Positions 4 to 23,454 of a DNA stretch of 23,454 bases are shown here, piece after piece. The position numbers were made by a program, and so were the translations under genes. The notes under the pieces were generated by a model. It worked only from the letters and a program-made list of their open reading frames with translations, did no database searches and was not told the origin of the DNA. Within the stretch, counting starts at the first letter, position 1; each line of letters opens with the position of its first letter. The DNA is from a virus, in IMG/VR virus record IMGVR_UViG_3300008450_000471, positions 1-23,454 of that record; one strand, 5' to 3'.

Positions 4-30
4 AAAGCCTCAAATTGAGGCTTTTTTTTT
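4..30 (+). terminator. Rho-independent terminator of the upstream gene
   Basis: An 8-bp stem AAAGCCTC/GAGGCTTT (4-11 with 17-24) closes a 5-nt loop and runs into nine T residues (22-30). It must end a transcript entering from the left, because the first gene of the window starts just downstream at 52. Confidence 0.88.
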
Positions 31-31
31 C

Positions 32-41
32 ATATTTATAA
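32..41 (+). promoter_or_regulatory. Putative late promoter motif ATATTTATAA (copy 1)
   Basis: The 10-mer follows directly after a terminator and ends 10 nt before the ATG at 52. The same 10-mer occurs before the genes at 9492, 10438, 11486 and 14153. It contains TATTTATA, the reverse complement of the T4 late -10 box TATAAATA; whether it acts in this orientation is inferred from position only. Confidence 0.6.
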
Positions 42-51
42 CAAAAACTAA

Positions 52-1272: not shown

Positions 1273-1274
1273 TT

Positions 1275-1826
1275 ATGGCTCTTTTTGGACAGGCACGCGA
1301 CATTTCAATGTTTAGATATGTTAACCGCGAGTTAATGGGTAATATTATATCTCAACAGTGTGCCTTTTACAAATTAAGATTAAATCAAACTAATTTTAAT
1401 ATGTACGGAGAAGCTGCCGAACAGAAATATTACGATGGTCCTATCTTGTTATACTGTTTAATAGACCTACCTGATCAAACCCAACCCACAGACGATATGG
1501 GTGTAACTTTTGATTGGCAACCTGAATTTAGATTTTTAAGAGACGATTTATTAAATAAACTTAATGATTTTAACCAAGACTCAATATATGGTGCTAATTT
1601 AGTACCACAAATTGGTGATATTATCTTATATGAAACCGCATATTATGAGGTACACGCAACTAATGCCGCACAATATTTTGTAGGTAAAGACCCGGATTAC
1701 CCAAACAGCCCACAACCCGCAGGATTCAATCCAGGCTTAGGGGAATTTGGTTATAATGTATCTATAATTTGTAAAACCCACTATGTTCCTGCTGATAAAG
1801 TTGGTATAACCTTTGAACGAATGTAA
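1275..1826 (+). CDS. Neck protein, gp14-like
   Basis: The protein has 183 residues against about 256 in T4 gp14. The segment around residues 110-135 (PQIGDIILYETAYYEVH) resembles the conserved part of gp14, where a 'GD(L/I)IYF...LFEI' strand pair is found, followed by a Tyr/Phe-rich stretch ending in a VGKDP turn. In the T4 family gp14 closes the filled head together with gp13 and creates the docking surface for the tail. Two-base gaps to both neighbours and the leader GTTAATT with no Shine-Dalgarno sequence suggest coupled translation within the neck operon. The C-terminus IICKTHYVPADKVGITFERM is short, so the extra C-terminal region of T4 gp14 is missing here. The family assignment rests on weak motif similarity plus order 13-14-15. 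Confidence 0.66.
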   Translation: MALFGQARDISMFRYVNRELMGNIISQQCAFYKLRLNQTNFNMYGEAAEQKYYDGPILLYCLIDLPDQTQPTDDMGVTFDWQPEFRFLRDDLLNKLNDFNQDSIYGANLVPQIGDIILYETAYYEVHATNAAQYFVGKDPDYPNSPQPAGFNPGLGEFGYNVSIICKTHYVPADKVGITFERM

Positions 1827-1828
1827 TT

Positions 1829-2917
1829 ATGGCAGAAAGTAGAAACCCATCTCCAAGAAAACCTACCCCCAAAACTCAAGTTGAACTTAGTAATCAACTA
1901 TCAGGGGCAAGTAATTCTCTATTAGGAGATCCAAATTTAGCTAATCCTAATTTTAACGGGCCTAATCGTTCATTGCAGAATAGTTGGGAAGGAGATACTG
2001 TAAAACCATTTACAGTTACTATCCAAGATATAGACGAGGCTATTATGTATTATTTCCAAAATGTTATTAAACCTTTTGTAATACAAAATGGTACGCGTAT
2101 TGAAGTACCTATAATATATGGTGCCCCTGAACGTTGGAAATCAGTTCAACGCGATGGGTATTATAAAGATAAAAACGGAGCTATAATGGCACCCCTTATT
2201 ATGTTCAAAAGAGATACTATTGAACGTAATAGAAGTTTGGGAAATAAATTAGATGCTAATTATCCTAATTTATATGGGGTAATGAAGAAAAAATACGATA
2301 CTAGAAATTTTTATTCAAATTTTAATGTATTAACCAATAGAGTTCCTGAAGAACAATTCTACGCAGTTACAATCCCCGACTACATTAACTTAACATACAG
2401 TTGTGTAGTTTATACTTATTATGTTGAGCAACTAAACAAAATAGTTGAAGCTATTAACTATGCTTCAGACACATATTGGGGGGATCCTCAACGCTATAAA
2501 TTTAAAGCTTCAATTGATTCGTTTAATACAGTAACAGAATTACCTACTGGAGCCGAAAGAATAGTAAAAAGTACATTTAATATTAAAATGTATGGGTATG
2601 TAATACCTAATACATTGCAAAATAATATTTCTTCTTTACAAAAATATAGAAATAAAGCCAAAATAATATTCGCTTTAGAAACCTCAGACAATCCTTTAGT
2701 ATTTGATCCTAATATACCCGTACTAGATGACAGTGCCGGAAGACCAAATGCTCAAAACGCAAGAAGTTTAGCAGCAGATAGATACAATGTTAAACAAGCA
2801 GAATTATTTAAAAGCCCATCTAATCCCGAATCTGAAACATTACTAAACGAAATATCAGAATTAAGATTACAACTAATCAAAGCAAATGAAATAATTCAAT
2901 CTTTACAAAATCCTTAA
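1829..2917 (+). CDS. Tail terminator / sheath-stabilising protein, gp15-like
   Basis: This 362-residue protein matches the layout of T4 gp15 (about 272 residues), the hexameric ring that caps the finished tail and binds the neck. A disordered Pro/Asn/Ser-rich N-terminus (1-55) precedes the core. In the core, residues about 65-105 (a helix with DEAIMYYFQNVIKPF followed by IEVPIIYGAPERW) correspond to the gp15 segment 'KFIRVPITYASKEHF'. Later segments, YAVTIPDYINLTYSCVVYTY (near residue 180) and FNIKMYGYVIP (near 250), fit the ring fold with its polarised beta strands. The C-terminal 60 residues look helical and coiled-coil-like, ending near LRLQLIKANEIIQSLQ. It starts 2 nt after the gp14-like gene and ends the neck transcription block before a 62-nt AT-only gap. 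Confidence 0.75.
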   Translation: MAESRNPSPRKPTPKTQVELSNQLSGASNSLLGDPNLANPNFNGPNRSLQNSWEGDTVKPFTVTIQDIDEAIMYYFQNVIKPFVIQNGTRIEVPIIYGAPERWKSVQRDGYYKDKNGAIMAPLIMFKRDTIERNRSLGNKLDANYPNLYGVMKKKYDTRNFYSNFNVLTNRVPEEQFYAVTIPDYINLTYSCVVYTYYVEQLNKIVEAINYASDTYWGDPQRYKFKASIDSFNTVTELPTGAERIVKSTFNIKMYGYVIPNTLQNNISSLQKYRNKAKIIFALETSDNPLVFDPNIPVLDDSAGRPNAQNARSLAADRYNVKQAELFKSPSNPESETLLNEISELRLQLIKANEIIQSLQNP

Positions 2918-2979
2918 AATTTAATAAAATAATTTGGAAATTTAAATTAAATTTTGTATATTATAAAAAACAAAAATTT

Positions 2980-3228
2980 ATGGAAAAACTAACACAACAA
3001 GAACTTGAAAAACTTCAAGAATTACAACAAAGAGGTCAAATTCTAATCAATGAATTAGGTCAAATTGAAATCGCTAAATTTGCACTACAAAGCCGAAGAG
3101 AAAATGCAGAACAACTTTTAACTCAATTACAAAACGACGAACAAGTTTATACTAGAGAGTTAACTGATAAATACGGAAAAGTTTCTGTAGACCCACAAAC
3201 CGGAGAAATTTCTAGAATAGAAAATTAA
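2980..3228 (+). CDS. Small coiled-coil protein, unknown role
   Basis: An 82-residue, highly charged protein. Residues 1-35 and 38-65 form two amphipathic helices rich in Gln/Glu/Leu, joined by LGQIEIAKFAL, like a prefoldin-type helical hairpin. The tail KYGKVSVDPQTGEIS looks like a short beta hairpin. I recognise no enzymatic motif. Similar short hairpin proteins are common in T4-like environmental phages and are sometimes guessed to be assembly chaperones; nothing here proves it. It is preceded by an AT-only stretch containing TTTTGTATATTATAA, a possible weak promoter, and followed after 16 nt by the modification cassette, with which it could be cotranscribed. The start ATG is the first in frame and the leader has no Shine-Dalgarno sequence. 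Confidence 0.7.
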   Translation: MEKLTQQELEKLQELQQRGQILINELGQIEIAKFALQSRRENAEQLLTQLQNDEQVYTRELTDKYGKVSVDPQTGEISRIEN

Positions 3229-3244
3229 AATATTTTAAAAAGTT

Positions 3245-4234
3245 ATGATTGATAATTTTGTTAAAATAGTTTTAGAAAACGGGGGGGCTATAACTCCTCT
3301 ACTTATACCTTCGGAAAATACAAACGGGACAGGTTTATGTAACCCCTCAATTTATATTGACATTGACCCACTTTGTTCATGCAATGATAAAATTCTAGTT
3401 AATTTACGTCACATCCAATATACTCTATACCACTCAGAGCTAAACAGATTTGAGCATCAATATGGTCCCTTAGTATATTTACACCCAGAAAATGATTTAA
3501 CTCTTGCAACAACTAATTATCTTTGTGAATTAGATCCTACAACTTTAGAAATCCAATCATATACTAAAGTAGATACCTCTAAATTAGATATCCCCCCAGT
3601 ATGGGAATTTATAGGACTAGAAGATGCCCGATTAGTTAAATGGGACGGAAAACTTTATATGTGTGGGGTCAGAAGAGATACAAAACCTAATGGTGAAGGT
3701 AGAATGGAACTATCCGAGATAGTAGATGGTAAAGAAATATCTAGATTTAGAATTGAACCTCCTATAGATCCAAATTCATATTGTGAAAAAAATTGGATGC
3801 CTATCTTGGATATGCCCTACCATTTTGTGAAATGGACAAACCCAACTGAAGTAGTAAAAGTTTATCCTGAAGAAGGACGTTCTGAGCAAGTACATTTAGG
3901 TCAACATTGCAGTATACCTGCCGATTTAAGAGGAGGATCTCAAGTTATCCCATTTGGGGAAGGATATTTAACTCTTAATCATGAAACATATTTATATAAT
4001 TCTGAACAAGGGCGTAAAGATGGTACTTATAAACACCGATTTACATACTGGGATAAAAATTGGAATATTCTTAAATTTTCTGATAATTTTTCTTTTTTAG
4101 ATGCTAAGATAGAATTTGCATGTGGGTTAGCAAAATACAAAGAAAATTACTTAATTACATTTGGATTTCAAGATAATGCATCATATCTTCTCAAAATACC
4201 TGCTAAATTTTTAGAAAACTTTATTTATGGATAA
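3245..4234 (+). CDS. GH130-like beta-propeller protein (glycosidase/phosphorylase fold)
   Basis: The 329 residues show the repeated beta-strand pattern of a five-bladed propeller. Motifs seen: GLEDARLVKWDGKLYMCG (from G124), EKNWMPI (E181-), RGGSQVIPFGEGYLTLNHE near residue 220, YKHRFTYWD, and IEFACGLA (289-296). The 'G.EDAR', 'NW.P' and 'E.ACGL' signatures are those of the GH130/GH43-type superfamily, whose bacterial members phosphorolyse or hydrolyse beta-mannosides. It opens a three-gene cassette with a glycosyltransferase, so a sugar substrate is likely. Whether it is catalytic or only sugar-binding cannot be told: Asp/Glu residues are present at E126/D127 and E290, but I cannot align them to the catalytic residue. 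It overlaps the next gene by 8 nt, which suggests translational coupling. It is not a recognised structural protein of T4. Confidence 0.7.
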   Translation: MIDNFVKIVLENGGAITPLLIPSENTNGTGLCNPSIYIDIDPLCSCNDKILVNLRHIQYTLYHSELNRFEHQYGPLVYLHPENDLTLATTNYLCELDPTTLEIQSYTKVDTSKLDIPPVWEFIGLEDARLVKWDGKLYMCGVRRDTKPNGEGRMELSEIVDGKEISRFRIEPPIDPNSYCEKNWMPILDMPYHFVKWTNPTEVVKVYPEEGRSEQVHLGQHCSIPADLRGGSQVIPFGEGYLTLNHETYLYNSEQGRKDGTYKHRFTYWDKNWNILKFSDNFSFLDAKIEFACGLAKYKENYLITFGFQDNASYLLKIPAKFLENFIYG

Positions 4235-5345
4235 ACAGTTAATTAATTATATAAGCGATACAACTAATCCTGAATTTAATTATGAATTAGGGTTAGCATA
4301 CAAAAATTTAGGTCATACCTCTTCTGCCATATCGTATTTACTTAGAGCAGCTGAAAGATCTGAAGATTTAAATTTATCTTATGAATGTTTACTTCTTATA
4401 GCTGATTGTTTTATTCAACAGAAAAATAGGGATTTTACAGTAAAAGGGCTATATTTACACGCTATTACAGTTTTACCTAAAAGACCCGAAGCCTATTACT
4501 TATTAAGTAAATTATATGAATCAAGAAATGAATATGCTGAATGTTACACAATATCTGAAATAGGTTTAAATATCTCCGATTTTAATTTACCACCCCTTAG
4601 AACTTATTTTGGACACAATGGGAAATGTGGTTTGATGTTTCAAAAAGCATTTATTTCGTGGTGGTGGGGAAAAGGTACTGAAAGTAGAAAATTATTTAAA
4701 GAATTAGCTTTTAAGTATTGGGATGAATTAGATGAAAATTTAAAAAGTTCTGTTGAAAAAGAATGTAAAATTTTTTTAGATAGAACTTTTTTTGAACTAG
4801 AATACCAAAAAGTATGTAATACTTTTTCTAATATTAGTGAAAATCTTCCAATTCTTTTTGAACTCGCAAAAGAATGTAATCATGTTACTGAAATGGGGGT
4901 TAGAGCCGGTGCAAGTACTAGGGCATTTTTAAATACTGATGTTATTTTAAGGTCGTATGATCTTTATATTGATGATGAAGTAAATAACCTTTTTAATAAA
5001 GCAAAACAATTTGGGAAAGATGTAAATTATATTAAGGCAAACGTTTTAGATATTAAAATAGAAGAAACTGATCTTTTATTTATTGACACTTGGCATTGTT
5101 ATAACCAACTCAAAGAAGAACTTAAATTACACTCCCCAAAAGTTAGAAAATATATAGCATTCCACGATACTCATACTTATGGAACCAATGGTGAATCCTA
5201 TTCAGTCACTATAGAAAATGGATATAATGAAAACCCAATAGGACTTCTCCCGGCAATTATAGAATTCTTAATAGAACACCCAGAATGGAAATTTAAAATT
5301 CATAAAACAAATAATAATGGTTTAACTGTAATTGAAAGGATATGA
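4227..5345 (+). CDS. TPR repeat protein with class I methyltransferase-like C-terminal domain
   Basis: Residues about 8-125 contain tandem helix pairs with the TPR pattern (FNYELGLAYKNLGHTSSAIS; PEAYYLLSKLYESRNEYAEC), a protein-interaction scaffold. Residues about 205-372 form a Rossmann-like domain of the CmcI/Methyltransf_24 type: glycine motif VTEMGVRAGAST (220-231), strand DLLFIDTWHCYNQLKEEL (282-299; D287, H290) and IAFHDTHTYG (311-320; H313, D314). Family members use S-adenosylmethionine and often a divalent metal held by Asp/His. TPR plus methyltransferase plus a neighbouring glycosyltransferase is a common layout in glycan modification loci. It starts inside the end of the GH130-like gene (8-nt overlap) and its stop overlaps the next start (ATGA at 5342-5345), so all three cassette genes are probably translated together. 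Substrate unknown. Confidence 0.75.
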   Translation: MDKQLINYISDTTNPEFNYELGLAYKNLGHTSSAISYLLRAAERSEDLNLSYECLLLIADCFIQQKNRDFTVKGLYLHAITVLPKRPEAYYLLSKLYESRNEYAECYTISEIGLNISDFNLPPLRTYFGHNGKCGLMFQKAFISWWWGKGTESRKLFKELAFKYWDELDENLKSSVEKECKIFLDRTFFELEYQKVCNTFSNISENLPILFELAKECNHVTEMGVRAGASTRAFLNTDVILRSYDLYIDDEVNNLFNKAKQFGKDVNYIKANVLDIKIEETDLLFIDTWHCYNQLKEELKLHSPKVRKYIAFHDTHTYGTNGESYSVTIENGYNENPIGLLPAIIEFLIEHPEWKFKIHKTNNNGLTVIERI

Positions 5346-7699
5346 AAAAGATAGTAGATTTTTTTCCTTATTTTGACCCTACAGGAAAGGAAATTCTTGA
5401 ATTAAGAATTAATATGTTAAAAGATTATGTTGATGAATTTATAATCTGTGAGTCTAATAAAACCCAAAGTGGCATTCCTATTGAATACAATCTAAGAAAG
5501 AGAATTAAAGAATTAAATTTACCCGAAGAAAAAATAAAGATTATAGATTTAAATATACCTGAAGATTCTGATTTAATAATTGAAGAAATTGATATACATA
5601 ATTGTACAGAAGATTGGGATATTGAATCTAGTTTAAATAAAAATAATTTAAATTCATTGCGGGGAAGAGTAAGAGAAAGAATGCAAAAAGACTCTCTTTT
5701 ACTTGTTTTAGACGATTACGATGATGACACAGTATTTATCCACAGTGACTCAGATGAAATTATAAAACCTGAAGCTATTGAATGGGTTTCTTCTATGTGT
5801 AGGCAAAATCAAGAGACTATTATAAAAATTCCATTAGTACATCTTGAAGGAAGAGCAGATCTTAGAGTCTATTTTGAAAATGAAAATATTCCTAGGCTTT
5901 GGGCCGGGGGCATGTTTTTTGCTACAAAATCACAACTAAAAATATCAACACCCGCCCAAATTAGATCTTGTGTTTTTAATAAATTTTCTATAAATCATTT
6001 AACACAAGATGGAAATATAATACACGATTTGGGTTGGCATTTTAGTTGGATGGGAAATGGGAAAAAAAGAATAGAAAAATCTAAATCTTTTTGTCATTAT
6101 GATGATATATCTAAATCTTTAATTGGTAATAAACATAATTCCGAAGAATTCCAAAATAGACTACTAGAAAACACCCCAGAAGAAGGAAAAATACCCCCTT
6201 CGGGAATTAAAAATACTATTTTAAAAAAATACCCAATAGAAAATCTTCCAAAAGAAATATTTGAACTGCCCAGAGTTAAAAATTTTTTACTTCCTAATTT
6301 AACTGAATTTGATTGGGGCTCTTTTAATAATGAAGAGAATAAACCTCACAGGGATTATGTCAAAAATGAAATTGAACATGGAGTTTATACAAAATTTTTT
6401 GACGTTGAACCAAATGATATTGTATTTGATATAGGGGCAAGTGTAGGCCCATTTACTAATTTTATTATAAATAAATTTCCTAAAGAAGTTCATTGCTTTG
6501 AACCCAGTAAAGATTTGTTTGAAACATTAAGTAAAAATTTTAAAAATTATAGTAATATTTTTTTAAATTGTTATGCTATTTCAAATTATGATATGGACAA
6601 TGTAATTATAGATTCTGTATATGATCTTGATAATTCACAAAATCCTAATATAGTAAATGCAATCACTTTTAAGAGTTATATTGAAAATAATAATATTAAA
6701 AAAATTGATTTTTTAAAAACCGATTGTGAAGGGGGAGAATGGTCTATTTTTACTCTAGAAAATTATAATTGGATTCGTAAGAATGTTCGCAAAATTACTG
6801 GGGAATTTCATCTTCATACTTTAGAAATGAAAGAAAGTTTTATAACTTTTAGGAATTTATATTTAAAAGATGCAAAAGATTTAATTGCATTTTCATCTAA
6901 TGAATTAGCCCATGTCGAAGAAATTAATTTATGGGATGATAATTTTATAAAAAACCATTTAGACTATTGTAATATCTCATTCAGGTATGATAACTCATAC
7001 CGGATATCTAAGAAATTCAATACACTAGACACATACTACACAGATCCAACCCCAGACTCAGATTGGGGTGTTATAGAAACTAATAAATTTAGTTTAAAAG
7101 AAAACCAACGCAAATCTTTTTTTGTAGTTGATAACTTTTACGATGACCCATATGCTGTAAGAGAATTTGCTCTTCAACAAACTTATTTTCCAGGTGAGGG
7201 TGCTGTAGGTTCAAGAACCCGCAAACAATTTCTTTTTGAAGGTATAAAAGAAAGATTTGAAGAAATTATGGGTGTAAAAATAGCAGAACATACTGGTAAC
7301 GGGCAAGGATGGAAAGATGGAGGGATAAATGGTCGTTTTCAAACTTGTACAGCTGGTACCCCTTTAGTATATCATTGTGATTCTCAACAATGGGCAGGTA
7401 TGATATACCTTACACCTGACGCCCCCCCTCAATGTGGGACTAGTTTTTTTAGACACAAAGAAACTAAAATAAAACATAATTCTGAAATAAATTGGGAAAT
7501 TGGAGAAGGTAATAAAGTATTTAATCAACATACTTTTTTAGACGGAACACCCTATGAATTAGTAGATAAAATAGGCAATGTATTTAATAGATTAGTTATA
7601 TTTAATGGAGGGCTAATCCACTCAGCATCTGAATATTTTGGGTGGGATATTCCATCTTCTCGGTTATTCCATATGTTCTTTTTTGATGAAGAAACATAA
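5342..7699 (+). CDS. Three-domain fusion: GT17-like glycosyltransferase, FkbM methyltransferase, 2OG-Fe(II) oxygenase
   Basis: Three enzymatic modules in 785 residues. Residues 1-280: GT17-like transferase (the family of beta-1,4-GlcNAc transferase III), with DFFPYFDPTGKEILELRI at the start, the nucleotide/metal-binding HSDSDE (134-139) and GWHFSWMG (231-238). Residues about 335-510: FkbM-type SAM methyltransferase with FDIGASVG (362-369), the acidic HCFEPS strand and TDCEGGEW (460-467). Residues about 585-785: 2-oxoglutarate/Fe(II) oxygenase resembling the DUF6445 group, with H678-C-D680 as the HxD motif, distal H760 and R774 for 2OG binding, plus YLTPDAPPQCGTSFF. All key metal and cofactor residues appear intact. 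Typical single-domain proteins of these families have 200-300 residues, so this is a real fusion with no frameshift. The ATGA overlap with the previous gene and GAAAGGAT before the ATG suggest coupled translation. Domain functions are well supported; the acceptor and the joint reaction are unknown. Confidence 0.82.
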   Translation: MKKIVDFFPYFDPTGKEILELRINMLKDYVDEFIICESNKTQSGIPIEYNLRKRIKELNLPEEKIKIIDLNIPEDSDLIIEEIDIHNCTEDWDIESSLNKNNLNSLRGRVRERMQKDSLLLVLDDYDDDTVFIHSDSDEIIKPEAIEWVSSMCRQNQETIIKIPLVHLEGRADLRVYFENENIPRLWAGGMFFATKSQLKISTPAQIRSCVFNKFSINHLTQDGNIIHDLGWHFSWMGNGKKRIEKSKSFCHYDDISKSLIGNKHNSEEFQNRLLENTPEEGKIPPSGIKNTILKKYPIENLPKEIFELPRVKNFLLPNLTEFDWGSFNNEENKPHRDYVKNEIEHGVYTKFFDVEPNDIVFDIGASVGPFTNFIINKFPKEVHCFEPSKDLFETLSKNFKNYSNIFLNCYAISNYDMDNVIIDSVYDLDNSQNPNIVNAITFKSYIENNNIKKIDFLKTDCEGGEWSIFTLENYNWIRKNVRKITGEFHLHTLEMKESFITFRNLYLKDAKDLIAFSSNELAHVEEINLWDDNFIKNHLDYCNISFRYDNSYRISKKFNTLDTYYTDPTPDSDWGVIETNKFSLKENQRKSFFVVDNFYDDPYAVREFALQQTYFPGEGAVGSRTRKQFLFEGIKERFEEIMGVKIAEHTGNGQGWKDGGINGRFQTCTAGTPLVYHCDSQQWAGMIYLTPDAPPQCGTSFFRHKETKIKHNSEINWEIGEGNKVFNQHTFLDGTPYELVDKIGNVFNRLVIFNGGLIHSASEYFGWDIPSSRLFHMFFFDEET

Positions 7700-7717
7700 T
7701 TTTTAGAATTTTCTGTC

Positions 7718-7727
7718 ATATGTATTA
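7718..7727 (+). promoter_or_regulatory. Degenerate copy of the late promoter motif before the sheath gene
   Basis: CATATGTATTATCAAC (7717-7732) resembles AATATTTATAATCAAC found at 10400-10415, with mismatches inside the core. It lies 21 nt before the sheath ATG at 7749 and after the end of the modification cassette, where an independent late promoter would be expected. No terminator is visible between 7700 and 7748. Confidence 0.35.
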
Positions 7728-7748
7728 TCAACAAAACCCGATAAAAAC

Positions 7749-9452
7749 ATGGCAGAAACTTTAATATCTCCCGGCGTACTTGCAAGAGAAAACGACTCAT
7801 CATTTGTAACCCAACAACCCGTAACTGTTGGAGCAGCTATTATAGGACCCACAGTTAAGGGGCCAGTTGAAATCCCCACTGTAGTAACTACATACTCTGA
7901 TTATGTAAATAAATTTGGTACTACATTTTTAAGTGGTGGTCAAGAATATAGCTATTTAACATCTATTTCGGCATATAATTACTTCCAAAATGGAGGTACT
8001 TCATTATTAGTAGCTAGAGTAGCTTCAGGGTCATTTGCTCCTGCTTCGGCTTCAATTTTAGCTAGTGGTAGTAATGTAGCCTTTACTTTAAAAACCATTT
8101 CTGAAGGTACTATAATGAACAATTCAGGTTCATTAGGCACTAATGGTATTTTATCAAGTGGTTCAGCTGATAATGTAAGATGGCAAATTACAAACCGCGA
8201 TACAGGATCAGGAACATTCAGCCTATTAATTAGACAAGGTAACGACACTACTACAGAACCTGTAGTATTAGAAACTTGGACTAACCTTTCACTAGACCCA
8301 ACTCAACCTAATTATGTATCTAGAGTAATTGGTGATAGCTACCAAGACTATAATTCAACTGAAAACTATATTCAAGTAAATGGTACTTTCCCTAACCAAT
8401 CAAGATATGTTTATGTAAGTGCTATTAATAGCCCAACTCCTTACTATTTTGATAATAACGGAACTCCTCAAAACCAATATACAAGCTCCATTCCAGTAAA
8501 CGCTAGTGGAACTTTTGGTGGAGCTACAGGTAATTTATTTTACGGGGGTGGTGCTAAATTTTATAATGCTATATCAGGTACTACTAATCTTCAAGGTATT
8601 AATGCCACAGATTACAATAACATGATTTCTTTAATGTCTAATCAAGACGATTATAGATTTAATGTTATTACAATTCCGGGTTTAACTATAACTGATAATA
8701 CTACTCAAGTAACTAATTTAGCTAATGCAGTTCAATCACGTGGTGATGCTATTTTAGTAACAGATACTTATTATTTTGGTGCCCAGTTATCACAAACTAT
8801 AACTGCTGCCTCTAGTGTCAATAATTCATACGCCGCAACTTATTGGCCTTGGTTACAAACAGTTGATCCTGGAACAGGACAATTAGTTTGGGTACCTGCT
8901 TCTACAATGATCCCAGGTGTATACGCATTTAACGATAGTGTATCTGAGCCTTGGTTCGCACCCGCGGGTATTAACAGAGGTGGTTTAAATACAGTAGTTA
9001 GAGCAGAAAGAAAATTATCTCAAACAAATCGTAACGATCTTTATGTAGGTAACGTTAACCCAATTGCTACGTTCCCTGGAACAGGTGTTGTAGTATACGG
9101 ACAAAAAACATTACAGAAAAAAGCATCTGCTCTTGATCGTGTAAATGTTCGTAGATTGTTAATTGCTCTTAAGTCTTATATTACTCAAGTAGCAAATAAC
9201 TTAGTATTTGAACAAAACACAATCGCAACAAGAAATCAATTCTTAAGTCAAGTTAATCCATATCTCGAATCAGTACAACAACGTCAAGGTTTGTATGCCT
9301 TTAGAGTAATTATGGATGATTCAAATAATACACCTGATGTAATCGATAGAAATCAGATGGTAGGTCAAATTTATCTACAACCAACCAAAACCGCTGAATT
9401 TATTTACCTCGATTTCAATATTACCCCAACAGGTGCTACATTCCCTGCGTAA
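7749..9452 (+). CDS. Tail sheath protein, gp18-like
   Basis: The N-terminus MAETLISPGVLARENDSS is the classic sheath start with the 'PGV...E.D.S' signature of contractile-tail sheaths, followed by TVGAAIIGPTVKGPVEIPTV, also standard in the family. A variable domain with many Ser/Thr/Gly residues (about 90-330) is probably the exposed protrusion domain. The C-terminal half is conserved: VYAFNDSVSEPWFAPAGINR (near 395), RVNVRRLLIALKSYI (near 460) and FIYLDFNITPTG at the end form the core that packs against the tube and makes the inter-subunit handshake. At 567 residues it is shorter than T4 gp18 (659), as in many environmental relatives. It is the first gene of the sheath-tube pair. The leader GATAAAAAC has no Shine-Dalgarno sequence. 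Confidence 0.95.
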   Translation: MAETLISPGVLARENDSSFVTQQPVTVGAAIIGPTVKGPVEIPTVVTTYSDYVNKFGTTFLSGGQEYSYLTSISAYNYFQNGGTSLLVARVASGSFAPASASILASGSNVAFTLKTISEGTIMNNSGSLGTNGILSSGSADNVRWQITNRDTGSGTFSLLIRQGNDTTTEPVVLETWTNLSLDPTQPNYVSRVIGDSYQDYNSTENYIQVNGTFPNQSRYVYVSAINSPTPYYFDNNGTPQNQYTSSIPVNASGTFGGATGNLFYGGGAKFYNAISGTTNLQGINATDYNNMISLMSNQDDYRFNVITIPGLTITDNTTQVTNLANAVQSRGDAILVTDTYYFGAQLSQTITAASSVNNSYAATYWPWLQTVDPGTGQLVWVPASTMIPGVYAFNDSVSEPWFAPAGINRGGLNTVVRAERKLSQTNRNDLYVGNVNPIATFPGTGVVVYGQKTLQKKASALDRVNVRRLLIALKSYITQVANNLVFEQNTIATRNQFLSQVNPYLESVQQRQGLYAFRVIMDDSNNTPDVIDRNQMVGQIYLQPTKTAEFIYLDFNITPTGATFPA

Positions 9453-9467
9453 ATTTTTAAAAACGGA

Positions 9468-9477
9468 ATATTTATAA
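9468..9477 (+). promoter_or_regulatory. Putative late promoter motif ATATTTATAA (copy 2)
   Basis: Exact 10-mer in the 39-nt gap between sheath and tube genes, ending 14 nt before the tube ATG at 9492. It would allow the tube to be made in greater amount than by readthrough from the sheath gene alone. Confidence 0.6.
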
Positions 9478-9491
9478 TAAACTAAAATAAC

Positions 9492-9980
9492 ATGGCAGTA
9501 TTAGATCCAAACGAAATATTTTTCACAGCCTTTGAACCGAAACAAACCAACCGATTCATCATGTATATCGATGGTATTCCGGCTTATGAAATCAAAGGAG
9601 TAGGTGCAGTAAATTTAACTCAAAACTCAGTAGCTCTTAACCATATTAACGTACAACGTTATGTTAAAGGTAAAACTACTTGGGGCACTATTCAGTTCAC
9701 ATTATTCGATCCTATCACTCCTTCAGGTGCACAAGCGGTAATGGAATGGGTACGTTTACACCACGAATCAGTAACTGGTAGAGACGGATATTCTGATTTC
9801 TACAAGAAAGACTTAACATTTGATGTGTTAGGTCCTGTGGGTGATATTGTATCAGAGTGGGTAATTAAAGGAGCAATGATTACTGAAGCCAGTTTTGGTG
9901 ATTATAATTGGGATGATGATGGTGTAGCTGTAAATATTACAATGACTGTTCAACCTGATTACTGCGTATTGAATTTCTAA
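9492..9980 (+). CDS. Tail tube protein, gp19-like
   Basis: 162 residues, close to the 163 of T4 gp19. The start MAVLDPNEIFFTAFEPKQTN leads into RFIMYIDGIPAYEIKGVG, the beta-strand pair that opens the tube fold; MEWVRLHHESVTGRDGY contains the helix, and the end GVAVNITMTVQPDYCVLNF is the final strand in many T4-like tube proteins ('...I...DYC.L.'). The protein polymerises as stacked hexameric rings within the sheath and forms the DNA channel. It has its own upstream late-promoter-like motif and a strong terminator right after the stop, so it can be an independent transcription unit. Leader TAAAATAAC, no Shine-Dalgarno sequence. Confidence 0.95.
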   Translation: MAVLDPNEIFFTAFEPKQTNRFIMYIDGIPAYEIKGVGAVNLTQNSVALNHINVQRYVKGKTTWGTIQFTLFDPITPSGAQAVMEWVRLHHESVTGRDGYSDFYKKDLTFDVLGPVGDIVSEWVIKGAMITEASFGDYNWDDDGVAVNITMTVQPDYCVLNF

Positions 9981-10003
9981 AAAACGCTTACATATTTTTC
10001 AAG

Positions 10004-10033
10004 AAGAGCTTGGCAACCCCAAGCTCTTTTTTT
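10004..10033 (+). terminator. Strong Rho-independent terminator after the tail tube gene
   Basis: A perfect 10-bp stem AAGAGCTTGG/CCAAGCTCTT (10004-10013 with 10019-10028) with a 5-nt loop and a T7 tail (10027-10033). It separates the sheath-tube unit from the small cassette that follows. Confidence 0.93.
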
Positions 10034-10046
10034 ATATTATACACGT

Positions 10047-10068
10047 ATTATAGGGAAAGTTCTTTAAT
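10047..10068. repeat. Inverted repeat, left arm, flanking the 91-residue gene
   Basis: The 22 bases here are the reverse complement of 10380-10402 except for one G (GGG here, CCCC there). The two arms enclose the whole gene at 10096-10371 with a 311-nt interior. The core read on this strand is TATAGGGAAAGTTCTTTAA. Confidence 0.9.
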
Positions 10069-10095
10069 ACATTCAACAATTTAAATTAAAAAAGT

Positions 10096-10371
10096 ATGAC
10101 AACATTTTATTTTGTATTAGGTATGGTTGTAGTCTTGGTAATAGCCGAGGTTATAGCTGCATTTATTGTAATTAAAACAATAAATTCATTAAAAGAACAA
10201 GCAAGAGAGTGTGACACTCAATTTACTAACATTTATCGTAGAATGGATGATGTACACCGAGACACAGATCAACAATTCCAAGAGGTTTATCGACAACTCG
10301 ATTCTCGATTAGATAAACTAGAAGCTAGATTAAAAGGAACTCAAGGTTCAAAACAAGTTATAAAAGGATAA
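10096..10371 (+). CDS. Small membrane-anchored coiled-coil protein, unknown role
   Basis: 91 residues. Residues 3-27 (FYFVLGMVVVLVIAEVIAAF and onward) are one strong transmembrane helix with only one acidic residue; residues 30-82 are charged and heptad-like (FTNIYRRMDDVHRDTDQQFQ), predicting a coiled coil, with a basic C-terminus. The topology is probably N-terminal anchor with a soluble coiled coil. No family is recognised. Single-helix phage proteins with coiled coils include spanin-like and holin-like proteins, but there is no lipobox or overlapping partner gene to support a lysis role. It sits alone between the tube terminator and the next late promoter and is bracketed by an inverted repeat, so it may be a separate cassette inserted among the tail genes. 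ATG at 10096 follows the AT-only leader TTAAATTAAAAAAGT. Confidence 0.75.
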   Translation: MTTFYFVLGMVVVLVIAEVIAAFIVIKTINSLKEQARECDTQFTNIYRRMDDVHRDTDQQFQEVYRQLDSRLDKLEARLKGTQGSKQVIKG

Positions 10372-10379
10372 AGAATCCA

Positions 10380-10402
10380 ATTAAAGAACTTTCCCCTATA
10401 AT
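10380..10402. repeat. Inverted repeat, right arm
   Basis: 23 bases whose reverse complement matches 10047-10068 with a single-base indel. The arm begins 9 nt after the stop codon of the enclosed gene and its end overlaps the first two bases of the promoter-like motif at 10401. Confidence 0.9.
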
Positions 10403-10410
10403 ATTTATAA
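10401..10410 (+). promoter_or_regulatory. Putative late promoter motif ATATTTATAA (copy 3)
   Basis: Exact 10-mer ending 27 nt before the ATG at 10438. It abuts the right arm of the inverted repeat. Confidence 0.58.
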
Positions 10411-10437
10411 TCAACAAAGTTACATTAAATAAAAATT

Positions 10438-11178
10438 ATGGCCGAATTAAATTTCCCAACCGAAATAGTTGAATTACCATCTAAAGGATTAGTATATTCT
10501 AAAGATAACCCTTTATCAAGCGGCAAAGTTGAAATGAAATATATGACCGCTAAAGAAGAAGACATTCTTACTAATCAAAACTACATAAGACAAGGGATAG
10601 TAATTGATAAACTATTACAATCTTTATTGATTACTAAATTTAATTATGATGATCTTTTAATAGGTGATAAAGACGCCATTATGTTATCTGCTCGTATTTT
10701 AGGATACGGAAAAGAATATACATTTGAATATTTAGGAGAACCAATTAATATAGATTTAACCCTTCTAAAAGAAAAACAATTAGACGAATCTAAACTAAAT
10801 TCAGCACACACAAATGAATTTACTTTTATTCTCCCTCATACCAACAATACTATTACTTTTAAACTTTTAACTCAAAAAGACGAAAAAAATATAGAAGCTG
10901 AAATTGAAGGTTTAAAGAAAATTAATAAAGAAGCTAATACCGAATTAACTACAAGACTAAAACATATGATCTTATCAGTTAATGGTAACTACGATCAAAA
11001 ATCTATTAGAGAATTTGTAGATAATGCGTTTTTAGCGCGTGACTCTAGGGCATTCAGGGAATATTATAACGCTATAAACCCTGGTGTAAATACCAAAATT
11101 AAACATGAATTTATTGAAGGCGTAGAGGAGGACGTCAATGTCCAGTTTGGAGTTAACTTTTTTTGGCCTGACGTCTAA
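10438..11178 (+). CDS. gp26-like baseplate/tail assembly protein (tail-assembly-chaperone position)
   Basis: 246 residues. The N-terminus has the signature LPSKGLVY (13-20), then GKVEMKYMTAKEEDIL and GIVIDKLLQSLL, a pattern shared by T4 gp26-like hub-assembly proteins of environmental myoviruses. The central part is beta-rich, and a helical C-terminus ends in a FREYYNAINPG segment and VNFFWPDV. It lies two genes before the tape measure, exactly where contractile and siphophage genomes keep the tail assembly chaperone. Its last 41 nt overlap the next gene in another frame (+1/-2), and the overlap contains a T7 run (11158-11164), so a frameshifted longer product is possible. Leader AATAAAAATT, no Shine-Dalgarno sequence. 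The role is inferred from motif and position. Confidence 0.68.
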   Translation: MAELNFPTEIVELPSKGLVYSKDNPLSSGKVEMKYMTAKEEDILTNQNYIRQGIVIDKLLQSLLITKFNYDDLLIGDKDAIMLSARILGYGKEYTFEYLGEPINIDLTLLKEKQLDESKLNSAHTNEFTFILPHTNNTITFKLLTQKDEKNIEAEIEGLKKINKEANTELTTRLKHMILSVNGNYDQKSIREFVDNAFLARDSRAFREYYNAINPGVNTKIKHEFIEGVEEDVNVQFGVNFFWPDV

Positions 11179-11452
11179 TTATAGAGCACACATATTTAAT
11201 CAAATACACGAAATATTATTTCATGGGCAGGGGGGATATAGTTACGATATAGTATATAATATGCCGGTTTGGTTACGTACATTTACTTATAATAAATTAA
11301 AAAATTATTACGATAAGATAAATAATCAAGAAAATACAAATAATGTAGAAAAATCTATAGAAAATATGAAATCTGTAGGAGCTACAAGAGATAAATTACC
11401 TATAAAGAAAATATCACCCCCTACCTATGTTACAAAGGCATCAAAGAAATGA
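11138..11452 (+). CDS. Small protein overlapping the gp26-like gene; possible downstream half of a tail assembly chaperone
   Basis: 104 residues in the frame +1/-2 relative to the upstream gene. The conserved-looking part is HEILFHGQGGYSYDIVYNMP followed by VWLRTFTYNKLKNYYDKIN, a pattern frequent in short proteins next to gp26-like genes of T4-like environmental phages; the last 45 residues are Lys/Asn-rich and probably flexible. Two expression routes are visible. First, an AGGAGG at 11126-11131 lies 6 nt before ATG 11138, the only near-perfect Shine-Dalgarno sequence at a start in this window, although it also encodes Glu-Glu in the upstream gene. Second, frameshifting at the T7 run would fuse about 95 codons of this frame to the upstream protein. 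The stop codon lies within a terminator hairpin. The tape measure gene follows. Confidence 0.65.
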   Translation: MSSLELTFFGLTSNYRAHIFNQIHEILFHGQGGYSYDIVYNMPVWLRTFTYNKLKNYYDKINNQENTNNVEKSIENMKSVGATRDKLPIKKISPPTYVTKASKK

Positions 11453-16551: not shown

Positions 16552-16860
16552 ATGAACCGCTATCTAAACATACCTATTATTAAATCCTTAAGTGGAAAAC
16601 AGATGTATGCCACATCTCGTTATCCTGAGATACCATTATCAGCAAACGATATATATGTTTATACTTCACAAGGTGATAGATACGATTTATTAGCATTAAA
16701 TTACTACGGGGATTCTTCATTATGGTGGGTTATAGCTGTTGCTAATCCTAATATTAGTTTAGGAACATTAGTTATACCCGAAGGTGTACAAATTAGAATA
16801 CCCGGCAATTATACAAACCCAATAGAAGAATTTGATATTATAAACAGGTTACAAGCATGA
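16552..16860 (+). CDS. LysM-containing baseplate wedge protein, gp53-like
   Basis: 102 residues. Residues about 31-66 (ANDIYVYTSQGDRYDLLALN then YYGDSSLWWVIAVANP) form the LysM-like domain of contractile-tail baseplate proteins: a short 'Y.v..GDr.D.lA..yYGd..lWWvIa.aNp' consensus, followed by LVIPEGVQIRIPG, the closing strand. T4 gp53 and its relatives use this domain to clamp baseplate wedges around the hub, not to bind peptidoglycan. It is half the length of T4 gp53 and ends just after the domain. Its stop overlaps the start of the hub gene (ATGA at 16857-16860), so hub translation is probably coupled. Confidence 0.85.
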   Translation: MNRYLNIPIIKSLSGKQMYATSRYPEIPLSANDIYVYTSQGDRYDLLALNYYGDSSLWWVIAVANPNISLGTLVIPEGVQIRIPGNYTNPIEEFDIINRLQA

Positions 16861-19730
16861 ATATTATAGGCGAAGGAATACAAGATTTTGTTTCAAACCA
16901 AATAAAAACTAGACAAATAGCATATGGTTCTGGGGGGGTAGAAAATCGAACTTTAGAACAAATAGAATACCTTAATGCAAAAACATCTTTTGCTAAATTA
17001 GTATCATCCGTAGATCTAGAAGCCGGATTTAACCCAGCTAGTAAGGAATTACAAGATATTAAAAATAAATATGGAAGTAGTAATTTAGCTAAAGAATTTA
17101 TACTATTCAATGGTACTACAGATGTTAATAATCAACAACGTTCTGGAATAAATAGAACAGGTAATCTAATAAACCACAATGCTGCTTATGGTATAGGAGG
17201 TTTAGAATTTGGCTTACGTCCTATGCCTGGTATTACCTCAGTAGATATAAAAACTGAAACTAGGGGCACTTTAAAAACAGCCACAGTAAATATAAAAGCT
17301 TGGAATAGAGTTCAATTTGAAATAGTAGATTTACTCTATTTAAGATTAGGGTATAGTGTTTTATTAGAATGGGGAAATACTATTTACTTTGATAACGCTG
17401 GGGTTTTACAAAAAAATCAAATTAATTCAATAGCTGCAGACTTTTTAAATGGCACCCTTGATGTAAATACAACTTTAACTAAAATACAAGAAAAAAGAAA
17501 ACAATCTAATGGCAATTATGATGCTTTGTATGGTAGAGTAGTTAACTTTTCTTGGGATTTTGCTGAAGATGGTAGTTACAATATTAATTTAATTATACGA
17601 AGTATAGGGGATGTTATTGAATCACTAAAAATGAATATTTTAGTAGACGATAAAACAAATATTAATACCCCCTCTCAAAATCCATCTAATAATACAGGTG
17701 GAGACAATCAAACTGAACCCCCTACTATAGAATCATATGCTGATAAAAATCAAATTGGATTTTTACTTTATAATGTAAAACAAGTTTTTGAACGCCAAAA
17801 AACCCCAGAAAAAAAGAATGGTAGTGTATCTATAACTAGTATTATAAATCGTAATACAAAGGAAAATTTATTATTTAGTCCCGATATAGAACAGAAAAAA
17901 AATTTTTTAAAACAAATTTTTGAAGGAAAAAATGAACCTGAATATTATATAAGATTAGGAGCTTTATTAGCATACCTACAAAATAAAATTTTTCAAAAAT
18001 ATGATGGTAAAATCCCGATATTAAATATAAATTATCAAGAAAATAATTATGTATACACTGTCTATAATCAAATTAGTATGGACCCACGTGTATGTTTAAT
18101 TAAAACCCAAATCAATTCAACCTCAGGTAATACTTATTATTATGCTCCTGAAGGAGAAGATTATGTTAAAGAAATAGGAGGGTATAAAGTAGGTCAAATT
18201 ATGAACGTCTATGTTAATTTTATGTATGTTTTAGAAACTATAGATTCTAATACTGATAATAAAGGGGCATGTACTTTAATTTCGTTTTTAAAAGCATTAT
18301 TAGCTGGAATAAACACATCTATTGGAGGAGTAAATAATTTAGACATCCATGTAGAAAATGATAAAGATATTTTAATAATAGACCAAAATCCTCTCCCAGG
18401 AAAAAATGATATACTAACTAGTTTAAATAAAACGCCTTCAAATAATGATGATATAGCTACAATTAATTTATATGGTTATTATAATAATAAAACTACTGCG
18501 GGCTTTGTTCGTAATTTTGGATTAAAAACTGAAATTACACCCGATCTAGCTAATATGTTAACTATAGGGGCACAAGCCGCAGGATCAGTTGTAGGTGAAG
18601 ACTCTACAGCTTTATCTAAACTTAATGAGGGTTTAAAAGACAGGATAGCACCTACTAAAACTGATTCTAGCGGCGCCAATACTGTTAACCCTACTGCCCA
18701 AGAACAATTAGCAGATCTAAATGAAAGATTTCCTAATGCTAAAAAGAACTTTGATCTTGCAATATTTGAGTTAGGGTCTAAAAATAACAATGAAAAACCT
18801 ATATGGAATGGAGGAAGTATAGACAGTTATACTCAACTCCAATTAGATTTTGTAACTTATCAAACTGCTAAAAAAGCAATCACCGAAAAAAAAGCATCAA
18901 ATCATATTGGATTTATTCCTATAAGCTTAAATCTAACTTTAGATGGTATTTCAGGGTTTAAAATATATAATGCTTTAAGAGTAGATACTACATACCTTCC
19001 CTCAAATTACCCAGCTACTATGGATTTTTTGATTACAGGTATAACTAATAAAATAGAAAATAATGTTTGGACTACTGATTTAACTACAGTAATGGTACCT
19101 AAAGATCCATCTCAAAGTGACAGTTTAAATCCAAAACAAACAACAGGAACAACAAATCAAGGGAATAATGTAAGGGCTTCAAACAGAAATAGAAATTGTG
19201 CTGCTGAGGATCAACAATTATCTCCTAATTATACTTTATCTCGACTGTCTTGTAGTGCCCCTGCTGCTCAGTTCTTTATTCCTTTAGAGGGTGTCCCTAA
19301 AACTGCAAGAGGAGGAACATTTACAAGACAACAAATAATAGAAAATTTAAGAGCATTAGCCATAAACATATTAGAACCTATAAGAGCTGCTTTTCCTACC
19401 ATAATTGTAACTAATGCTTACAGAGATAAGGGAAATTCTAGCCAACACGAAATAGGAGAAGCAGTAGATATACAATTCTCTGACATTGCAGGAACTATAG
19501 AAAATCAAAATATCCAAATGCTTAAAAGAGCTCAAGATATACAAAAAATATTAGCTCGTAAAAATGGATACGACCAATTTCTATTAGAATATAAAACTGA
19601 TAATGGTGGAAGACCTTGGATTCACATTTCATATCGTAAAGATGGAAAAAATAGAAGAGAAGTTAAAACTTTTTTAAATAACGTGACTGCCCAAAAAGGC
19701 AATGGTACATTATATAATCCCTTAGCATAA
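16857..19730 (+). CDS. Baseplate hub protein with C-terminal M15-type peptidase domain
   Basis: 957 residues. N-terminal 1-110 is helical. Residues about 113-200 ([20 protein letters not shown], then [10 protein letters not shown] and [20 protein letters not shown]) are the characteristic block of hub proteins in environmental T4-like phages. A long Asn-rich middle includes [20 protein letters not shown] near 690. The C-terminus (about 815-945) is a D,D/L,D-carboxypeptidase-like M15 domain: [14 protein letters not shown] with zinc ligands H864 and D871, and WIHISY with H923, matching the S.H..G.A.D...W.H.S pattern. Such a domain would cut peptide cross-links of the host cell wall during injection, the job of the lysozyme domain in T4 gp5. 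The start overlaps the LysM gene stop by 4 nt. Zinc ligands appear intact; the substrate bond is inferred from the family. Confidence 0.85.
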
Positions 19731-19732
19731 CT

Positions 19733-22700
19733 ATGGCATATTTTCCTAAATCTCAAGTAACAACTAATTTATATAGTAATCAAGAATTTGTTATTCTTGA
19801 AACCCAAGAACTATATACGGGATTTTATTGGAAAAATTCTTCAGGACAATTCTTTACAGGTAAAACCCCACAGGACTTACCAACACAAGAATTAATTCCT
19901 ATAACTGATAGTCAAATTCAAACGGATGACATAAATGTTACACCTTCTTTAGACGCATTAGAATATAATACAACAACTAACACTAGTACTCCTTTTAATT
20001 CAACTCCGGTATTTTTTCAAACTAAACCTACCCACCAAGACTATCAAATAGGAGAATTTAGAAGATATTTTTGTAAAAAATCAAATGAAATTTTATATAT
20101 TGAAATTAGTAAAGAAACATTTGATTTATTAGTAATTAAAGATACAAGAATATTATGGCAATTATATGTGCCTTTTAATATACCTTGGCAATTAACAGGT
20201 GATAGGGAACAAGTATACAAAACTAACCGCAATATAGTTGAACTAACCTCTCAACAACAGCAGTTACCAAAATTTGACGAATATCTAAAAAAAGATTATT
20301 TAAAATATTATATAGAAGGAGTTTTTATAGAAACATCACTTACTTCTTCTATTAACACCCCATTTACAAGTTCAACTGCTAGAACAGTTACCAGAAGAAC
20401 CCCAACAACCCCTACACGTACTTCAACTAATAGAAATACAAATGTATTTCAACCTATTTCTACTTCTAGTTTCCAAATACCTACTGAACAACCCCAAATT
20501 AATCCTACTCAACAATCCAGGGAAATAATATATATAGGTACTTCGGGCCCACAAGGATCACAAGGTACAACTGGTACCCAAGGTGCTCAAGGAACCCAGG
20601 GTACCCAAGGTATACAGGGTATTGCAGGTGCTTTTGCAGGTCAAGGCATTCAAGGTACCCAAGGTACACAGGGTACACAAGGTATGCAAGGCTTTCAGGG
20701 TACACAGGGTACCCAGGGTACTCAAGGTACACAGGGTATTCAAGGCGTTCAAGGAACTCAAGGTACCCAAGGTACTCAAGGCATCCAAGGAATGCAGGGT
20801 GTTCAGGGCGTTCAGGGTATTCAAGGAACACAAGGTACACAGGGTACTCAAGGAACACAAGGTACACAGGGCACTCAAGGTGTTCAAGGAACCCAAGGTA
20901 TCCAAGGTCCCCAAGGCACACAAGGTACCCAAGGTGTCCAAGGCACACAGGGTATTCAAGGTAGACAGGGTATACAAGGCATACAAGGCACCCAAGGTAC
21001 CCAAGGTGTTCAAGGTGTTCAAGGAACGCAGGGTATAAGTGTGCAAGGAACCCAAGGCACACAGGGCATCCAAGGAATCCAAGGCACTCAAGGTATCCAA
21101 GGTACACAGGGTATTAGTGTCCAAGGAGTTCAAGGCACACAGGGTATTCAAGGTGTACAAGGAACCCAAGGCACACAAGGTATCCAAGGTGTACAAGGAA
21201 CACAAGGTACCCAAGGTATCCAAGGGGTTCAAGGAATACAAGGCACACAAGGCACACAAGGTATCCAAGGTGTTCAAGGAACACAGGGTACACAAGGTAT
21301 CCAAGGCGTTCAAGGCACACAGGGTATTCAAGGTGTTCAAGGAACCCAAGGTACACAAGGTATTCAAGGTATTCAAGGCATAACAGGTAATACAGGGGGG
21401 GCAGGAACACAAGGAACACAAGGTACCCAAGGTGTACAAGGTACACAGGGTACTCAAGGCATTCAAGGTATCCAAGGTGTACAAGGCACACAAGGTACAC
21501 AGGGTATTCAAGGCGTTCAAGGTGTACAGGGTACACAGGGTACTCAAGGTACCCAAGGTGTACAGGGTACACAGGGTACTCAAGGTATTCAAGGTATCCA
21601 AGGTGTACAAGGCACACAAGGTACACAGGGTATTCAAGGCGTTCAAGGTGTACAGGGTACACAAGGCACACAAGGTATCCAAGGTGTTCAAGGAACCCAA
21701 GGCACACAAGGTATTCAAGGTGTTCAAGGCACACAAGGTACACAAGGTATTCAAGGTGTACAGGGTACACAAGGCACACAAGGCACACAAGGTATTCAAG
21801 GTGTACAGGGTACACAGGGTACTCAAGGTATTCAAGGTACACAAGGCACACAAGGTATCCAAGGTAGACAAGGTGTTCAAGGCACACAAGGTATCCAAGG
21901 CACACAAGGTAGACAAGGTATCCAAGGTACAACAGGTTCTACTCCTTCAGTTACAGCTTGTTGGTCAGCTACTGGATCAAGCAGTCCAGATGCTAATGAA
22001 ATTAGTACAAACACAGGTACAGGATTAACTTACGATAATAGTACTACTTTTATATATGCCGGCCGTACTAGTCCTAATGTTGCACTTTTAGATTCTCTTG
22101 TAAGTGGCCAAACTATAACTGTCACTAATGGTGGGTTAAGCACACAATATAATATCAGTGGTACTCCTACTACAGCAGGCTCTATTACTACCATACCTGT
22201 ATCTTACAATAATGGTGCAGAATATTCAGCTGCTGTGGGAGCAACAATTTGTATTTCAGTTATTAATGCTATTGGTGCCCAAGGTATCCAAGGTATACAG
22301 GGTAGACAGGGTACACAAGGTATCCAAGGCGTTCAAGGAACACAGGGTACTCAAGGTACTCAAGGCATACAAGGTACACAAGGCATTCAAGGTGTTCAAG
22401 GAACCCAAGGCACACAAGGCATACAGGGTAGACAGGGTATCCAAGGTACAACAGGTACACAAGGTACTCAAGGCACACAAGGTACAACAGGTACACAAGG
22501 TACTCAAGGTATCCAAGGTACTCAAGGTATCCAAGGTACTCAAGGTATCCAAGGTACTCAAGGTATCCAAGGTACTCAAGGTATCCAAGGTACAACAGGT
22601 ACACAAGGTACTCAAGGTATACAGGGTACAACAGGTACACAAGGTACTCAAGGTACACAGGGTACACAAGGTATCCAAGGCGTTCAAGGAACACAGGGTA

Positions 22701-23454
22701 CTCAAGGTATTCAAGGTGTTCAAGGGACACAGGGTACTCAAGGTATTCAAGGTGTTCAAGGGACACAGGGTACTCAAGGTACACAAGGTATTCAAGGTGT
22801 ACAGGGTACACAAGGCACACAAGGCACACAAGGTATTCAAGGTGTTCAAGGAACACAGGGTACTCAAGGTATCCAAGGCGTTCAAGGAACACAGGGTACT
22901 CAAGGTATCCAAGGCACTCAAGGCATTCAAGGTGTTCAAGGAACCCAAGGCACACAAGGTATTCAAGGTGTTCAAGGCACCCAAGGTACCCAAGGTATTC
23001 AAGGTGTACAGGGTACACAGGGTACTCAAGGCATTCAAGGTGTACAGGGTACACAAGGTATCCAAGGTGTTCAAGGTACACAGGGTACACAAGGTATCCA
23101 AGGCGTTCAAGGAACACAGGGTACACAAGGTATTCAAGGTGTACAGGGTACACAAGGCACACAAGGTATCCAAGGTGTTCAAGGAACACAGGGTACTCAA
23201 GGTATCCAAGGTGTTCAAGGAACCCAAGGCACTCAAGGCACTCAAGGTATTCAAGGCAGACAGGGTATTCAAGGTGTACAAGGAACACAGGGTACTCAAG
23301 GCACACAAGGTATCCAAGGCGTACAAGGCACACAAGGTATTCAAGGTAGACAAGGTACCCAAGGCACAATAGGAACCTCAGGCAACGACGGCTCCAACTC
23401 AGGAAGATGGCAATACGCTACGGGGGGTGGGGTGCCTAATACTAAAGATTTCAC
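19733..23454 (+). CDS. Giant collagen-like tail fibre/adhesin, partial (runs off the right edge)
   Basis: One continuous frame from the ATG at 19733, 2 nt after the hub stop, with no stop before the window ends: at least 1,240 residues. Residues 1-271 are a non-repetitive head ([20 protein letters not shown]..., later [20 protein letters not shown]), presumably the baseplate anchor, ending in a Thr/Pro/Ser/Asn linker. Residues 272-734 are about 154 Gly-X-Y triplets, overwhelmingly Gly-(Thr/Ile/Val)-Gln. Residues 735-847 are a beta-rich island with Cys in TACWS and TICIS. Residues 848-1219 are about 124 more triplets. From about 1220 a new domain begins ([10 protein letters not shown]). Gly-X-Y repeats form trimeric triple helices, as in phage fibres, so a long trimeric rod is expected. 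Oddities: almost no Pro, no Hyp-type or Lys sites, and a few phase breaks (GISVQG twice, GAFAGQG once). GC is higher than elsewhere. Receptor binding is inferred. Confidence 0.9.
20546..21934 (+). repeat. 9-bp Gly-X-Gln coding repeat, block A
   Basis: About 154 copies of a degenerate 9-mer GGN-(ACN/ATH/GTN)-CAR. Rare variants carry Ala, Met, Phe, Arg, Pro or Ser at X/Y. Phase breaks occur at GAFAGQG (near 20627) and at GISVQG (near 21033 and 21111). Higher-order units are stacked within it, including a 126-bp duplication. Confidence 0.95.
21422..21673 (+). repeat. 126-bp tandem duplication inside block A
   Basis: The unit at 21422-21547 recurs at 21548-21673 (14 triplets each). The first ~115 bases match with only two or three third-position differences (CAA/CAG, GGC/GGT); the last ~12 bases diverge. 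This suggests recent unequal recombination or slippage. Confidence 0.8.
22274..23389 (+). repeat. 9-bp Gly-X-Gln coding repeat, block B
   Basis: About 124 copies of the same degenerate 9-mer after the beta-rich island, in the same reading frame. Arg at X (GRQ) and Thr-Thr triplets (GTT) are the main variants. A 36-bp unit is present twice in perfect tandem at 22706-22741 and 22742-22777. Confidence 0.95.
22499..22588 (+). repeat. Five perfect 18-bp tandem repeats
   Basis: GGTACTCAAGGTATCCAA is repeated five times with no mismatch (starts 22499, 22517, 22535, 22553, 22571), coding (Gly-Thr-Gln-Gly-Ile-Gln)5. Flanked by GGTACAACAGGT units on both sides. Lack of even synonymous change marks it as the youngest expansion seen here. 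Confidence 0.95.

Follow-up and report, generated by a model that had tools for sequence, protein, structure and literature searches.

Collagen-like tail fibres of phages (PHROG 5073, 6320, 819 and 1806; Pfam PF01391) are among the closest described systems, with the side tail fibres EPclA/B of EHEC prophages and FibU of 80-alpha as examples. Their plan of an anchor, a Gly-X-Y rod and globular modules is also that of the protein described here. The stability of collagen is usually attributed to proline, hydroxyproline, charge pairs or glycosylated threonine. Phage collagen-like fibres have been shown or proposed to be trimeric tail fibres (PMC3368898; for FibU, PMC7048315). In published viral collagens, position X holds 22% Pro and 35% Asp/Glu, and position Y holds 13% Gln (PMC3368898, Table 4). 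Prokaryotic collagens are said to depend on Pro, charge or hydration networks (PMC8968730).

The window analysed here is the whole 23,454-nt contig of the IMG/VR virus record IMGVR_UViG_3300008450_000471, and it also equals the full record IMGVR_UViG_3300008451_000033. Its last gene starts with an ATG at position 19733, two bases past the stop codon of the hub gene. In the list of open reading frames, this frame is open to position 23452 and comprises 1240 codons, in agreement with the original prediction of at least 1,240 residues open to the window end. Since the window is the complete viral contig, the gene is truncated by the contig itself and no stop codon is in view. Among the IMG/VR contigs found, none runs to the end of the fibre gene, and no longer contig was found. 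The plus-strand frame from 19733 is a real gene and chance is excluded. With base composition as the reference, it reached +0.57 bits per codon under the codon usage of the 15 genes upstream. Along the repeat, codons for Gly, Thr, Gln, Ile and Val differ at their third positions without altering the protein pattern. Both observations confirm the predicted choice of the collagen frame. The encoded protein consists of an anchor, a linker and a rod with inserted modules (Table 1), and the boundaries first proposed for a head (about residues 1-271) and an island (about 735-847) held to within a few residues. We consider it probable, at roughly 80%, that an Immutovirus-like contractile-tailed phage carries this protein as a side or tip tail fibre, made up of a hub-side anchor, a rod and exchangeable inserted modules, its distal end being missing.

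Table 1. Domain plan of the fibre and the hub gene in front of it, in window positions.
Feature	Residues	Position	Strand	Basis
Baseplate hub/spike gene, 957 aa, with C-terminal peptidase-like domain		16857..19730	+	BLASTP 8e-65 to immuto26A_238
Conserved anchor domain, stand-alone in relatives	1-193	19733..20311	+	Homology to relatives; AlphaFold2 pLDDT 84, pTM 0.56
Thr/Pro/Gln-rich linker (75 residues)	194-268	20312..20536	+	Starts about where stand-alone relatives end (DYLKYYK, then stop)
Collagen rod 1, 154 triplets; interruptions 302-304, 437-438, 463-464	269-737	20537..21943	+	PF01391; tail fibre families phrog_5073, phrog_6320, phrog_819
Island, 110-aa globular module between rod segments	738-847	21944..22273	+	Single-sequence model, Foldseek
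Collagen rod 2, 125 triplets, T-T-I-V rhythm over four triplets	848-1222	22274..23398	+	36-bp and 126-bp DNA repeats
Start of second module, cut by contig end	last 18 visible	23399..23454	+	Same motif opens L004 island

Judged by its sequence, the rod is a collagen-like repeat with a long Gly-X-Y periodicity. The Pfam Collagen model PF01391 matched with E = 7e-127 and 413.7 bits, far above the gathering cut-off of 27.2. The tail-fibre family phrog_5073 was matched with E = 1e-178, also by the rod alone, a low-complexity match that is to be read at family level only. Further PHROGs matched by the fibre were phrog_6320 and phrog_819 (tail fibre). NCBIfam models for Lcl and Scl also matched the repeats, the Lcl score lying below its cut-off and the Scl2 hit being confined to the repeat. 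The rod comprises 279 Gly-X-Y triplets, close to the predicted 278, an exact count that depends on the metagenome assembly of tandem repeats with periods of 9, 36 and 126 bp. They form five runs, covering residues 269-301, 305-436, 439-462, 465-737 and 848-1222. The predicted composition, with Gln at nearly every Y, Thr, Ile or Val at X and hardly any Pro, was recovered. Position Y is Gln in 260 triplets, and position X is Thr (140), Ile (72) or Val (46) in 258 and Arg in seven. Pro occurs in two triplets, and about eight charged residues are found among the 558 X/Y positions. At X, hydrophobic residues return with a period of four triplets (autocorrelation 0.43 for the second block and 0.31 for the first block's longest run). 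Four of the seven Arg triplets lie within about 25 residues of block ends, a post hoc observation.

This composition is far outside the published viral-collagen average (PMC3368898). The original prediction of a chemically unusual rod holds in this respect, but the rod is not unique. The exact GTQ-type repeat pattern was present in 61 stretches in IMG/VR, nearly all with at most a few percent Pro, a set that is biased as it was selected by pattern. In contigs carrying the anchor gene, about 14 of 20 collagen ORFs did not exceed 4% Pro at either X or Y; the Pro-poor ones were of GTS/GSS types, several of them interrelated, and Pro-rich ones occurred too. In 84,980 prokaryote genomes, the strict GTQ pattern had no match and a relaxed pattern matched ten stretches. 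These include Pro-free GTQ/GIQ repeats of the named bacterial isolate Desulfosporosinus fructosivorans (L158, L165), which shows that the type also occurs outside viruses. Based on these repeat searches, Pro-free Gly-X-Gln collagen is a recurring type rather than an oddity, since it recurs in dozens of viral contigs. The GTQ/GIQ collagens of other viral contigs (e.g. L103, L116 and L087) share the same triplets, near-zero Pro and interruptions by small domains, and some end in an intramolecular-chaperone-like tail (IAQEV...LLIEA). They differ in their N-terminal domains, and among those examined the hub-side anchor was found only in the window and L004. A tblastn search of the repeat against INPHARED gave nothing, which is uninformative because low complexity was masked. 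A literature search with poor cover of subscription journals found no paper on GTQ-type phage collagen. PDB entry 8zxl was considered as a Pro-free collagen and rejected, as its repeat model of GAPGSQGAPGLQG type contains Pro. A further repeat protein was of GTS/GSS type, a 4333-aa ORF on the minus strand of L151 (from 18510) with 1019 Gly-X-Y triplets in 134 runs; L151, a 112-kb relative, has the anchor protein in unfused form.

The near-lack of Pro and charge bears directly on the architecture of the rod, as natural collagens draw on Pro, Hyp or charges (PMC3368898, PMC8968730), and work referenced in PMC11869133 describes Gly-rich PPII bundles in the snow flea antifreeze protein and in the adhesin of phage S16. 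The rod could accordingly be made and present in the virion as a PPII or polyglycine-II bundle, or another Gln-bonded rod, and not as a classic collagen triple helix. We regard this as unlikely: Gly stands strictly at every third residue over hundreds of residues and, together with the modular islands and the PHROG tail-fibre and Pfam collagen matches, this suits a trimeric rod. Known PPII bundles are also short. A slightly better, still tentative chance is given to the broader idea that Gly-X-Gln repeats free of Pro and charge make up a separate kind of rod that stabilises itself, for example through glutamine bonds and with an Ile or Val at intervals of a few triplets. Such rods would be widely used for the fibre shafts of aquatic viruses and be stabilised unlike any characterised collagen.

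For the first island, no sequence relatives were found at the sensitivity used, INPHARED included. Its model (pLDDT 60, low confidence) gave best Foldseek hits mostly to collagen triple helix repeat proteins of uncultured tailed phages, a Synechococcus phage and giant viruses, suggesting a fold that resembles modules of viral collagen-repeat proteins. In L004, an island flanked by two collagen blocks begins with the motif seen at the visible end of the protein, and a relative of this island module is tandemly repeated in L150. The end is therefore probably another inserted module rather than the C-terminal knob. No C-terminal receptor-binding or trimerisation domain was seen within the contig, as the gene runs off its end. 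In L150 (6198-9200), several tandem WKYATGGG modules were present in a 1000-aa protein without collagen.

The fibre gene is located inside a tail module. Upstream genes encode a head-tail adaptor, tail sheath, tube, hub-assembly, tape-measure, LysM-type tail and hub protein. The tail sheath is 54% identical over 98% to that of Flavobacterium phage immuto, and the gene order is that of immuto, down to a hub-like protein followed by immuto26A_239. This suggests that the aquatic phage is probably a relative of Immutovirus, a likeness judged on the tail module (colinear genes and sheath), and a Bacteroidetes host is likely. Limnohabitans phage DC33 (L147, PQ492659.1) is filed under Inoviridae; with 39 kb, far above the usual inovirus size, its taxonomy looks wrong. 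A sugar-enzyme cassette in the tail module (3245-7699) comprises a 329-aa protein of unclear family, a TPR protein that weakly matches a methyltransferase, and a 785-aa protein that fuses glycosyltransferase family 17, an FkbM methyltransferase and DUF6445 with a 2OG-Fe(II)-oxygenase-like HxD...H pattern. It could modify virion or host glycans. The GT17 part is 94% identical in L004, and the cassette was suspected of travelling with the fibre. This was dropped after a comparison of the entire contigs: window and L004 resemble each other before and after a divergent tail segment, and no link between cassette and fibre is claimed.

That segment was delimited by comparing window and L004. DNA identity was 88-96% over most of positions 26-11313, with unaligned gaps. 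Strong divergence followed, spanning the tape measure, the hub and the initial part of the anchor; from about 20156 through the linker, identity was again 89-99%. The linker itself showed 97-99% DNA identity, and the parts upstream of it 40-75%, placing a mosaic breakpoint within the fibre gene. These alignments indicate that segments of the fibre gene have been exchanged between relatives. Within the fibre, the N-terminal part goes with the hub and the rod with the rest. This would be expected of an N-terminus that has to match the hub, and it supports contact of the anchor with the hub or baseplate. The hub gene was itself modular. Its N-terminal three quarters are kept and its C-terminal, probably wall-degrading domain is swapped (L004:6931-9990 against the window gene). 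Residues 764-940 match the endolysin family phrog_894. The peptidase-like end was matched in only five of 75 relatives, and hub lengths were mostly about 800 to 1400 aa.

Residues 1-193 of the fibre align with immuto26A_239 (BLASTP 3e-07 over residues 3-179), which is annotated as a hypothetical protein only. It occupies the same place behind the hub and is a stand-alone protein of 323 aa without collagen, carrying a Pro-rich N-terminal extension instead. This homologue came from synteny; no INPHARED relative of the anchor was found at the sensitivity used. A search with a four-sequence alignment detected anchor relatives in 80 viral loci, the window contig included. Of 76 relatives, 71 had a hub homologue directly upstream of the anchor gene, and 47 of 59 had a DNA polymerase A homologue downstream of it. 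An AlphaFold2 model of the anchor domain, built from 63 sequences, matched uncharacterised phage proteins only and had no fold match in the PDB. Its site in the virion is for this reason inferred from position and mosaicism, both of which point to baseplate attachment of the conserved N-terminal domain beside the hub. With an anchor of no known fold, and with head or structural proteins among the collagen PHROGs (phrog_19200, phrog_38766), the protein might instead decorate the capsid or neck. Such a location is improbable given the hub gene directly in front in nearly all relatives and the divergence of the N-terminal half of the anchor along with the hub and tape-measure segment.

Collagen was fused to the anchor in three contigs only, the window, L003 and L004; the remaining relatives were unfused, the protein being encoded by itself in immuto and in about 75 further viral contigs. 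Unfused relatives with a visible stop mostly had about 200 aa, many ending in DYLKYYK, and a few had 254-296 aa. The rod thus starts, via the linker, about where the ancestral protein ended. The N-terminal region, called a head in the original prediction, is not specific to the fibre; most of it is a conserved stand-alone tail protein of the relatives. A separate GTS/GSS-like collagen gene follows the anchor gene in L040, L043-046, L048 and L067. By gene order, rod and anchor are neighbours in these relatives and fused in the window. All three fused contigs stop inside the fibre gene, and DNA repeats of the above periods are present, so that the fusion or the extreme length could be an assembly artefact in which the anchor was joined to another gene's repeat or extra copies were introduced. 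This is very improbable: the fusion recurs in three contigs, each from another metagenome, together with a unique linker and a common interruption motif, and its junction lies in non-repetitive DNA; the copy number alone is uncertain. Expression of one of the shadow frames, which the original prediction feared an automated caller might pick and which do reach 455, 404, 368 and 366 aa, has a negligible probability and is a weak worry because codon statistics tell the frames apart clearly: all six shadow frames tested scored from -0.52 to -0.95, third-position variation preserves the collagen frame alone, and no shadow frame is continuous with the conserved anchor.

For a tail fibre at the baseplate, the following structure is proposed. 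An old tail protein, encoded right after the hub gene, would form the N-terminal domain and anchor the fibre, as its position and mosaicism suggest. In the lineage of the window, this anchor would have been lengthened by the linker and a rod of at least 279 triplets, nearly all of them Gly-X-Gln. The rod is presumably trimeric. With a rise of 0.286 nm per residue in the collagen helix, it would measure at least about 240 nm if so extended (279 x 3 x 0.286 nm). The expected tail length is about 130 nm, calculated from the 875-aa tape measure at 0.15 nm per residue. The small globular modules may act as joints, trimerisation points or glycan binders, and the receptor-binding end would lie beyond the contig.

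Phage collagen-like tail fibres are an already known kind, and the new fact here is the fusion of anchor and rod. It suggests how a phage fibre can originate: a rod is added beyond the normal end of a conserved tail protein on the hub side, after which recombination replaces the hub-proximal part and leaves the rod in place. The rod itself, with two prolines, almost no charge and a common viral type, offers a direct test of the triple helix without the usual stabilisers. Whether it folds as a normal triple helix is a question of interest and worth an experiment, and a simple rod for protein engineering would be on offer. Streptococcal Scl1/2, Bacillus BclA and Legionella Lcl likewise carry Gly-X-Y rods. 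These bacterial proteins serve as adhesins on cell surfaces or spores; their triplets contain Pro, charged residues or glycosylated Thr, and they have no non-collagen domain in common with the fibre. The EPclPs are closer in plan and differ in chemistry: they hold 48% Pro at X and about one third charged residues at X and at Y, whereas the rod of the window, with at least 279 triplets, holds 0.4% Pro and about 1.4% charged residues at X/Y.
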